Positions 33,451-37,089 of a stretch of DNA of 40,000 nt are shown piece after piece. The stretch is from contig NZ_FNBC01000020.1 of the NCBI RefSeq assembly GCF_900102145.1, positions 1 through 40,000 on the forward strand. Direction: 5' to 3'. The notes under the pieces are model-generated. The model ran no database searches and was not told the origin of the DNA. It saw only the letters and a list, made by a program, of their open reading frames with translations. Within the stretch, counting starts at the first letter, position 1. Every line of letters starts with the position of its first letter. Made by a program: the position numbers and the translations under genes. Origin of the DNA: Thermus arciformis. Lineage in GTDB: Bacteria > Deinococcota > Deinococci > Deinococcales > Thermaceae.

Positions 33451-34734
<1,284 letters not shown>

Positions 34735-34738
<4 letters not shown>

Positions 34739-34938
34739 GCCGCTTCAATTTCCAGCGCGCCCTCCAGGCCTACGACTTCCGCCCTCTCCTCCTCCAGGGA
34801 TACGGCGATGGCCTCCTGCAGGCGCCGGAGGAGCTCCTCAAAGCTTTGGGCCTGGGTGTGGGCGTGGAGCTCGGGCACGTGGGCCACGAAGTAGCCCTCC
34901 TCGTCCCGCTCCACCACCACGCGGTAACGCCGCCTCAT
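34735..34938 (-). CDS. hicB: HicB-type antitoxin, short form
   Basis: A 67-residue HicB-like protein: YRVVVERDEEGYFVAHVPELH is the beta-strand core, AQSFEELLRRLQEAIAVSLEE the helix. Many HicB proteins carry an added ribbon-helix-helix or HTH domain of 40 or more residues that represses their own promoter; none is present here. The unit therefore probably relies on the lysJ promoter. The ATG is four bases after the lysJ stop, with GGGAG overlapping that stop, so it is coupled to lysJ. Confidence 0.86.
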
Positions 34939-34942
34939 CTCC

Positions 34943-36130
34943 CTATGCTAGCACCGCCCGCACCGCCTCCACCACCCGCTCCAGGTCTTCCTTTTCAATG
35001 ACCAAGGGCGGCAGGAAGCGGATCACCGTGGGGCCCGCCTGGAGGGTGAGGACGCGGTGTTCCTTCTCCAGCCTGGCGATATAGGGGGCCACCTTTTCCT
35101 TGAGCTCCAGGCCCACCATGAGGCCCATGCCCCGCACCTCCCGGACCTTGGGGGAGGGGATTTCCCTGAGCCTTTCCATGAACCAGGCCCCAAGCTCCGC
35201 GGCCCTCTCCCAAAGCCGCGTCCGCTCCAAGTAGCGGATGGCCGCCACCCCTGCCGCCATGGCCAAGGGGTTCCCGCCGAAGGTGGTGCCGTGGCCGCCC
35301 TTGGGCATGCTCCGGGCCACCTCCTCCCGCATCACCGCAGCCCCAATCGGCACCCCGCCCCCCAGGGCCTTGGCCAGGGTGAGGATGTCGGGGACGATGC
35401 CAAAGTGCTCAAAGGCGAAGCGCTTCCCCGTGCGGCCCATGCCGGTCTGGATCTCGTCCAGGATGAGGAGGGCCCCCTTCTCCTGGGTGATCTCCCGGGC
35501 GGCCTTCAGGAACTCCGGGGTGGCCGGGCGCACGCCCCCTTCCCCTTGCACGGGCTCCAGGATCACCGCCGCCGTCTCCTCGTCCACGGCCCGCCTAAGG
35601 GCCTCCACGTCGTTGTAGGGGATGAACTCCACGGGCTCCACCAGGGGCAAAAAGGGTTCCCGGTACTTGGGCTCCCAGGTGACGGAGAGGCTTCCCATGG
35701 TCCTTCCCGAGAAGCCCCGCATGGCGGCCACGAACTTCTTCCTGCCCGTGTGGGCCCGGGCGAACTTGAGGGCGGCCTCGTTGGCCTCGGTGCCCGAGTT
35801 CACCGGGAAGACCCGGTTGAGCTCCGGGGGGAGGATGGCCGTGAGGGTCCGGTAGAACTCCCCCCGCATGGGGGTGGGGAGGGTCTGGGGCATGGCCATG
35901 AGGGTCTCCGCCTGCCGCTTCACCGCCTCCACCACCTCGGGGTTGCCGTGGCCCAGGTTGGCCACCCCGTAGCCCCCCACGCAGTCTATGTACTCGTTGC
36001 CCTCCGCGTCCCACACCTTCGCGCCTTGGCCCCGGACGAGGAGGAGGTCGTGCTTGGTGTAGACCCCGGTGTCCAGGGTCTTCTCCACCTCCAGAAGGGC
36101 CCGCCAGTCTTCCAGGGTGCTCGTCTTCAC
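34943..36130 (-). CDS. lysJ: [LysW]-aminoadipate semialdehyde / glutamate semialdehyde transaminase
   Basis: A 395-residue class III PLP aminotransferase. It aminates LysW-bound aminoadipate semialdehyde in lysine synthesis and also acts in the ornithine branch. Motifs: [80 protein letters not shown] with the PLP Asp, and the Schiff-base Lys in [12 protein letters not shown]. The GTG at 36130 (V read as Met, [13 protein letters not shown]) is chosen because GGGAGGTG lies just upstream and family length fits. The residues near [12 protein letters not shown] differ slightly from the T. thermophilus HB8 protein as I recall it, so this is another strain. Confidence 0.94.
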
Positions 36131-36145
36131 GCCCGCACCTCCCAT

Positions 36146-36216
36146 AAAGAAAAGCCCCGGGGGGCCGCCCGGGAAGCGCCGCTTCCCAGGCCGCTTCACG
36201 TTTTGCCCCGGGGCTT
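36146..36216 (-). terminator. lysJ leader attenuator (terminator overlapping leader ORF)
   Basis: AAGCCCCGGGG (36216-36206, inside the leader ORF) pairs perfectly with CCCCGGGGCTT (36162-36152), and TTCTTT (36151-36146) follows directly. Inside it lies a second stem, GCCTGGGAAGC with GCTTCCCGGGC (one G-U pair, loop GGC). A ribosome stalled on the leader codons would cover the 5' arm and block the terminator. Confidence 0.72.
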
Positions 36217-36219
36217 CAT
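36196..36219 (-). CDS. Leader peptide upstream of lysJ (M-K-P-R-G-K-T)
   Basis: A seven-codon ORF ATG AAG CCC CGG GGC AAA ACG followed by TGA. It starts seven bases after the -10 element TAGCCT, so it should be leaderless. Three of its six codons after the start specify Lys (two) or Arg (one), the two end products that depend on LysJ/LysK. Its codons 2-5 form the 5' arm of the terminator. The layout repeats that of trpL. It is too short for homology, so the call rests on position, codon content and the overlapping hairpin. Confidence 0.6.
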
Positions 36220-36226
36220 GTCCTTA

Positions 36227-36255
36227 AGGCTAGGAGGATTGACCCAGGGTGTCAA
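36227..36255 (-). promoter_or_regulatory. lysJ leader promoter
   Basis: On the minus strand TTGACA (36255-36250), a 17-base spacer and TAGCCT (36232-36227), seven bases before the leader ATG. Confidence 0.72.
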
Positions 36256-36267
36256 CCCAAATAGCAT
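36239..36267 (+). promoter_or_regulatory. Promoter of the outer-membrane-like gene, overlapping the lysJ promoter
   Basis: TTGACC (36239-36244), a 17-base spacer and TAGCAT (36262-36267), six bases before the ATG at 36274. Together with the opposing TTGACA it forms the inverted repeat TTGAC-N7-GTCAA (36239-36255), so the two promoters interlock. Confidence 0.65.
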
Positions 36268-36273
36268 GGAGTT

Positions 36274-37089
36274 ATGCCAAGGTGGTTGGCGCTACTTGCC
36301 CTGTTTTCCCTGGCCCAGGCCCAGTTCTTCTTCAGCTTGAGCGCGGTGGACAAGAGCGTCTTCGGTTTCGGCCAGGCCCTCCCCGCTGGGGTGTGGTGGC
36401 GGGTGGGGGTGGACCACAACCTGGAGGCGAGCGCCCACCTCTACCTGCGCCGGGAAGGGCTTACCAATTCCCTCTTTCCCCGTTTGGGCTTTATGGGGCT
36501 CGGCCTCCCCGGGGCCTACTACCTGGGGCTTGGGGTGGAGGTGGGGCCTGACGGGAGGCGCGTTTCCGGCCTCGTGGGCCTCGAGGCCTTCTTGGGCGAG
36601 GGTTTTGCGGTCTTCCTGGAGGGCATGGGCCCAGTCCAAAACGTCGGCGGGCCCCACTTCGGGGTGGGCCTCCGCTATTACCCCTCCGGGCGGGAGACCT
36701 TCACGCCCATCTTTGACCCCGAGCGCCGCTTCCGCCTGTACGTGCCCATCCCTGTCGGCACGCCCGTGGTCGCGGCCCTGGCCTACGAGGAGGAGGGCTA
36801 CGCCCTCTGGCTTGGCGGCTGGGCCTTCTCTCTTTTTGGGGCCCTCTGGCCCGCTTTGGGCGCCCACGCCTACCTGGGGGACGCCTTCTTCGGCCTGGGA
36901 ACGGGCTACGGTTTGGGGGACGCCTGGATGGTCTTCCCCTACCTGGGCTACCGCTTCCGTCTGGGAGAGGGGATGGAGGGCCAGCTCCGGCTGCAGGCCC
37001 CCTTCCGCCTCACGGACCGGAAAACCCTAGGCGATTTCTATGGCTTTGTGTACAACCTTCTGGGCTTCGCCCTGAGCTTCTCCCTGTGA
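36274..37089 (+). CDS. Predicted outer-membrane beta-barrel-like protein
   Basis: A 271-residue exported protein. MPRWLALLALFSLAQAQ is a signal peptide (cleavage probably after AQA). The rest alternates hydrophobic and aromatic/glycine residues (VWWRVGVDHNLEASAHLYLR, YYLGLGVEVGPDGRRVSGLV, PHFGVGLRYYPSG, FPYLGYRFRLGEG). It ends with a hydrophobic strand, GFALSFSL, like the last strand of outer-membrane barrels. About 10-12 strands seem likely. No specific family is recognised, and a soluble beta-rich envelope protein is an alternative. It diverges from the lysJ leader. Confidence 0.68.
   Translation: MPRWLALLALFSLAQAQFFFSLSAVDKSVFGFGQALPAGVWWRVGVDHNLEASAHLYLRREGLTNSLFPRLGFMGLGLPGAYYLGLGVEVGPDGRRVSGLVGLEAFLGEGFAVFLEGMGPVQNVGGPHFGVGLRYYPSGRETFTPIFDPERRFRLYVPIPVGTPVVAALAYEEEGYALWLGGWAFSLFGALWPALGAHAYLGDAFFGLGTGYGLGDAWMVFPYLGYRFRLGEGMEGQLRLQAPFRLTDRKTLGDFYGFVYNLLGFALSFSL

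Follow-up and report, generated by a model that had tools for sequence, protein, structure and literature searches.

The lysJ gene of Thermus arciformis and the genes behind it are very probably controlled by a ribosome-mediated, lysine-responsive transcription attenuator built around a leader ORF of seven codons. The ORF, its conservation and four RNA arms with alternative predicted pairings are found in the window, by which we mean the whole 40,000-nucleotide stretch analysed here (contig NZ_FNBC01000020.1, positions 1 to 40,000; Table 1). lysJ was detected in all 27 Thermus genomes, and the leader occupies the same place before it in 26 of them. A transcription start, translation of the leader, termination and a response to lysine may be deduced from these sequences. 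The ORF MKPRGKT, which the original prediction had placed before lysJ, is present on the minus strand. Orthologous leaders were also checked for joint loss of the Lys/Arg codons and the terminator arm, and 26 of the 27 Thermus genomes came out in favour of the prediction.

Table 1. Features of the lysJ leader and the genes behind it, with positions in the window.
Feature	Position	Strand	Basis
-35 element TTGACA	36250..36255	-	sequence; 17-18 nt 5' of TANNNT in 26/26 leaders
-10 element TAGCCT	36227..36232	-	sequence; 17 nt from -35, 7 nt to leader ATG
Leader ORF MKPRGKT-stop, 7 codons, ATG-AAG-CCC-CGG-GGC-AAA-ACG-TGA	36196..36219	-	sequence; 7 codons in 26/26 leaders
Lys AAA, codon 6 of leader ORF	36204-36202	-	AAA in 26/26 leaders
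Arm 1, inside leader ORF, pairs with arm 4	36206..36217	-	folding; P(1:4) at least 0.84 in 26/26 at 37 C
Arm 2, 5' side of antiterminator hairpin 2:3	36181..36191	-	folding
Arm 3, pairs with arm 2 or arm 4	36167..36177	-	folding
Arm 4, 3' arm of terminator	36151..36162	-	folding
U-tract TTTTCTTT	36146..36153	-	sequence
lysJ, [LysW]-aminoadipate semialdehyde transaminase	34943..36130	-	NF042418 LysJ_Th_th, 804.7 bits vs cut-off 700
HicB-like ORF	34735..34938	-	no Pfam or NCBIfam match; co-transcription inferred
hicA, HicA-family gene	34499..34738	-	PF07927, E 7e-22; co-transcription inferred
lysK, [LysW]-lysine hydrolase	33451..34527	-	NF003367, 482 bits vs cut-off 363

The promoter elements lie very close to the leader. 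In the 26 genomes, TA[CG]CCT or a near variant is found 7-10 nt 5' of the leader ATG, and the transcript is predicted to start at about 36221-36219, on the ATG or no more than about 2 nt from it. The leader mRNA is thus probably leaderless or nearly so. A start at the leader ATG is plausible because about 40% of genes in Deinococcus-Thermus are leaderless and carry a TAnnnT signal (PMC3160421). The lysJ start codon is a GTG at 36130, preceded by the ribosome site GGGAGG. A divergent promoter-like site (TTGACC-17-TAGCAT, 36239-36267, plus strand) overlaps the lysJ promoter and points towards an ORF of 271 aa without family match at 36274-37089.

The order of the genes behind the leader had been correctly anticipated as lysJ-hicBA-lysK, and family matches (NF042418, PF07927 and NF003367) give lysJ-(hicB)-hicA-lysK, the HicB-like ORF having no family match. 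In 8 of the 27 Thermus genomes, lysJ and lysK are separated by a hicBA-like pair (34499-34938 in the window); the leader occurs whether or not the pair does. Here, a toxin-antitoxin pair may be under lysine attenuation.

A short ORF between promoter and terminator, as expected of a ribosome-mediated transcription attenuator, was found in 26/26 leaders. Its length is exactly 7 codons in each of them, with TGA (16), TAA (8) or TAG (2) as the stop, although the leaders come from related species and these counts are not independent events. The peptide itself varies: MKPRGKT in the window, and for example MAARGKT, MAAWGKT, MRARGKS and MGPRGKA elsewhere. On the lysJ tree, codons 2 to 7 require a minimum of 7, 8, 5, 1, 0 and 6 changes, respectively, and the stop requires 6 (among TGA, TAA and TAG). 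Codon 6, the invariant Lys AAA, is the regulatory codon matching the operon product that an attenuator should have, present singly and not as a run, and it sits in an unpaired stretch of the leader RNA. AAA is also rare among Lys codons, with 23 AAA vs 365 AAG in the lysJ genes (23/388, ~6%) and 4 vs 61 in the genes of the window (4/65).

The leader had been proposed to sense both arginine and lysine. The lysine part is supported by the AAA at codon 6 of all 26 leaders; the arginine part does not stand, as codon 4 is Arg (CGG or CGC) in 19 of the 26 and Trp (TGG) in the other 7. A single attenuator responding to Arg and Lys together would make sense, since LysJ and LysK may serve both pathways, and it could draw on K2, R4 and K6 of the window leader (the only one of the 26 with Lys at codon 2), on the 19 Arg codons, and on the Arg codon directly before Lys in two sister genera (SRKP) and in another genus (PRKP). 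It is nevertheless unlikely. Codon 4 has changed at least 5 times on the tree vs never for Lys6, and Arg4 of the leader of the hcs lysine cluster varies too (R/L/F). Arg4 appears to be a side effect of the RNA arm, because replacing CGG by TGG keeps the CC[CU]GGG pairing core. Dual sensing as a conserved property was rejected, the Arg codon not being kept alongside the Lys codon.

The RNA from 36222 to 36146 (minus strand) folds at -49.2 kcal/mol, against -34.2 +/- 3.6 for shuffled sequences (z -4.2; 0/200 as good). The original prediction had codons 2-5 of the ORF pairing with the 3' arm, and they do so within a perfect 12-bp stem that runs from the G of the ATG to base 2 of codon 5 (ORF bases 3-14, 36217-36206, with 36162-36151) and encloses the hairpin 36191-36181/36177-36167. 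The same 3' arm had been said to precede TTCTTT; the arm is where it was placed, and the U-tract is longer, TTTTCTTT (36153-36146). Arm 3 can also pair with arm 4 via CCCGGG (36173-36168) and 36161-36156, which is the classical terminator form. A CC[CU]GGG core is present in all four arms, and 1:2, 2:3, 3:4 and 1:4 are all possible. Sequence and fold together predict the intrinsic terminator that an attenuator should carry 5' of the first structural gene.

Conservation is concentrated in these elements. The hairpin arms are 100% identical across the 26 genomes (promoter spacer 55%, region after the U-tract 48%), and the last 12 bases of the terminator are 96% identical vs 48% immediately 3'. 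Hairpin 2:3 comprises 11 bp, with 99.5% of cells paired and an almost invariant sequence, and because its arms hardly vary the 26 leaders yielded no covariation for it and are uninformative on this point. As for the 1:4 stem, random in-frame 18-mers from lysJ genes pair as well in 0.5% of cases for the window leader and in 4% for the average leader. Selection for, or co-evolution of, this stem itself is weakly indicated, because synonymously recoded leaders match its pairing in 27% of cases on average and 1:4 pairing suffers little when arms are exchanged between species (p ~0.05).

A hairpin sequence conserved beyond the needs of pairing could also belong to a riboswitch-like leader RNA that binds a metabolite or protein at its conserved AAAA loop and hairpin. 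Such a function is very improbable, however, as the length and stop of the ORF are conserved and arms that each have two partners to pair with would also be expected to stay invariant. An Rfam scan of the window returned no family at gathering score, with the lysine riboswitch, the T-box and the Leu, His, Thr and Trp leaders included, and its other matches were weak and chance-like.

Each of the 26 leaders was folded free, with a ribosome at Lys6 and with a ribosome at the stop, using textbook values for the footprints. In the free RNA, arm 4 pairs with arm 1 of the ORF in 26/26 (P at least 0.84). With Lys6 in the A site, the predicted structure is mostly hairpin 2:3, and arm 4 keeps a weak pairing (~0.4-0.7). 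With the ribosome at the stop, arm 4 is paired again, mainly as 3:4, at P of at least 0.9 in most leaders and with a minimum of 0.59 in L082. The switch index was 0.38 vs -0.07 after shuffling the region 3' of the ORF. The folding thus predicts an antiterminator whose formation excludes the terminator and hinges on where the ribosome stands, as attenuation demands; the predicted switch is poor in two species (L082 and L102).

Even with no ribosome present the stem is very stable, and in some species the element is wholly absent, as might be expected of a simple terminator or a stable 5' hairpin whose sole effect is to damp lysJ, with an incidental ORF and no sensing. This simpler explanation is quite improbable, given that the 7-codon length is exact despite changing stop codons, that the rare AAA is invariant within an unpaired stretch, and that the leaders of sister genera also carry a Lys codon.

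For the lysine-responsive attenuator, the following sequence of events is proposed. Transcription would start at or next to the ATG of the 7-codon leader and translation would be immediate, while the four arms with their common CC[CU]GGG core compete for pairing. The stretch from the leader ATG through the U-tract measures just 74 nt, and the ribosome must therefore load very early. When Lys-tRNA is scarce, the ribosome would halt with the AAA of codon 6 in the A site, covering arm 1 and leaving arm 2 free. Hairpin 2:3 would then form, arm 4 would be left partnerless beside the U-tract, and RNA polymerase would continue into lysJ. When Lys-tRNA is ample, the ribosome would proceed to the stop, six bases further on, and cover the 5' part of arm 2, so that 3:4 terminates transcription. 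If the ribosome has departed or was never loaded, 1:4 would form around 2:3 and likewise terminate. This extra 1:4 terminator, an addition to classical attenuation, would make termination the default in the absence of a ribosome. As the stop codon lies only 4-6 nt 5' of arm 2 in all 26 leaders, a six-base shift in ribosome position would decide whether arm 2 is available. The switch had originally been attributed to masking of the ORF arm. Pairing of that arm is upheld, but hiding arm 1 cannot by itself account for the switch, since arm 1 is also covered when the ribosome is at the stop; the modelled folds suggest that the choice between hairpins 2:3 and 3:4 discriminates the stall from the stop state.

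Several regulatory codons are usual in classical attenuators, whereas the lysJ leader has one conserved Lys codon. In both Thermus lysine leaders, the sensing positions are exclusively AAA (26/26 at lysJ; 50/50 codons in 25 hcs leaders). The invariant AAA suggests that codon choice, and not the amino acid alone, is part of the sensor. A more specific version can be offered only tentatively, namely a minimal attenuator resting on one rare sensor codon, in which AAA would read the charging of a single Lys isoacceptor (UUU anticodon) and the 1:4 and 3:4 stems would make termination the default save for an early stall in the probably leaderless 7-codon ORF.

Tsubouchi et al. reportedly described, in 2005, a lysine attenuator of the main lysine cluster (hcs) in Thermus thermophilus. 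The hcs leader of the genomes studied here, which we take to be that same attenuator, reads MLARAKKLGRRGVG or near variants and has AAA AAA at codons 6-7 in 25/25 detected copies. Its codons 2-4 (CTGGCCCG; L141-L166) are complementary to the 3' arm of the hcs terminator. In folding, codons 2-4 of the ORF pair with the 3' terminator arm in the free RNA, a Lys stall gives 2:3, and a ribosome at the stop gives 3:4. The 1:4 stem could here, too, make termination the default in untranslated RNA. A leader ORF that is itself a terminator arm is thus not unique to lysJ, given that these genomes have an hcs leader that folds alike. The two leaders share the amino acid, phylum, pathway and a Lys AAA at codon 6, as well as the predicted 1:4, 2:3 and 3:4 topology with arm 1 inside the ORF. 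However, the hcs leader has 14 codons, tandem AAA AAA and arm 2 within the ORF, whereas the Thermus lysJ leader has 7 codons with a single conserved Lys, and its arms 2 and 3 lie wholly 3' of the stop. With 7 codons and one conserved Lys, the lysJ leader does not qualify as an hcs-type 14-codon lysine leader.

In 23 Thermus genomes the exact hairpin pattern has a single occurrence, at lysJ, and all other Thermaceae genomes searched lack it. A covariance model scored 80-100 bits (E 7e-18 or better) at lysJ only; its other matches (at most 30 bits, E ~1e-4 to 0.05) mainly fell on the opposite strand of this hairpin or looked like chance, and were set aside. Longer leaders precede lysJ in two other Thermaceae genera, g2 and g3 (MLPRSRKPRHRGLG, MFASSRKP[MV]QREVG), and in genus g12 of family f4 (MK[ATV][LW]KPRKPEVRGKP); no comparable leader at lysJ was seen in the other families sampled. 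In the sister genera, as in Thermus, the leader precedes the same gene and a Lys codon lies before the antiterminator arm, here an arm of the ORF that pairs with the 5' arm of the terminator. Unlike the Thermus leader, those of g2, g3 and g12 run to 14-15 codons and end in a separate terminator hairpin of the ordinary type. Presence in other Thermaceae genera and in g12 implies that, judging from sequence, the lysJ attenuator either predates Thermus or arose more than once, the Thermus form being the short one. The g12 leaders (L171, L173, L174 and L176) end in VRGKP before the stop, similar to the ARGKT of Thermus. The Thermus leader might be what remains of a longer one, derived from its C-terminal part.

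The single Thermus genome without the leader is G009 (L083, ~1460-1510), in which TTGACA/TAGCCT is followed directly by AAGGAGGAT and the lysJ ATG. This arrangement reads as a natural deletion of the whole leader, and the genome retains its hcs leader (L154). Genus g5 (L134) also lacks a lysJ leader. The lysJ match is split over two frames in five Thermus genomes (L103, L104, L105, L106 and L107), most likely by sequencing errors.

The principle of ribosome-mediated attenuation is classical and already known; the lysJ device is unusually compact. Like the trp, his and leu attenuators and the ilvB leaders of Actinobacteria, it is predicted to combine a leader peptide, a terminator and an antiterminator, but those systems respond to other amino acids through longer leaders with runs of regulatory codons. 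Actinobacterial ilv leader ORFs that overlap candidate terminators have been reported (PMC1262725). A description of the lysJ leader was not found in the searchable literature, a body to which most subscription papers do not belong. What sets the leader apart is its size (7 codons, 74 nt from the ATG to the end of the U-tract), its single invariant AAA, and the series of longer, shorter and lost leaders to which it belongs. To our knowledge, a 7-codon, probably leaderless design is close to the lower limit for an attenuation mechanism, and it is simple enough for base-by-base testing.

With the lysJ leader, lysine attenuation in Thermus is probably not confined to the hcs cluster but also takes in the lysJ-lysK genes, which are located separately, and this suggests that the split parts of the lysine pathway share one translational signal. 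The natural losses in G009 and genus g5, together with the longer relatives, illustrate how switches of this kind become smaller and disappear.
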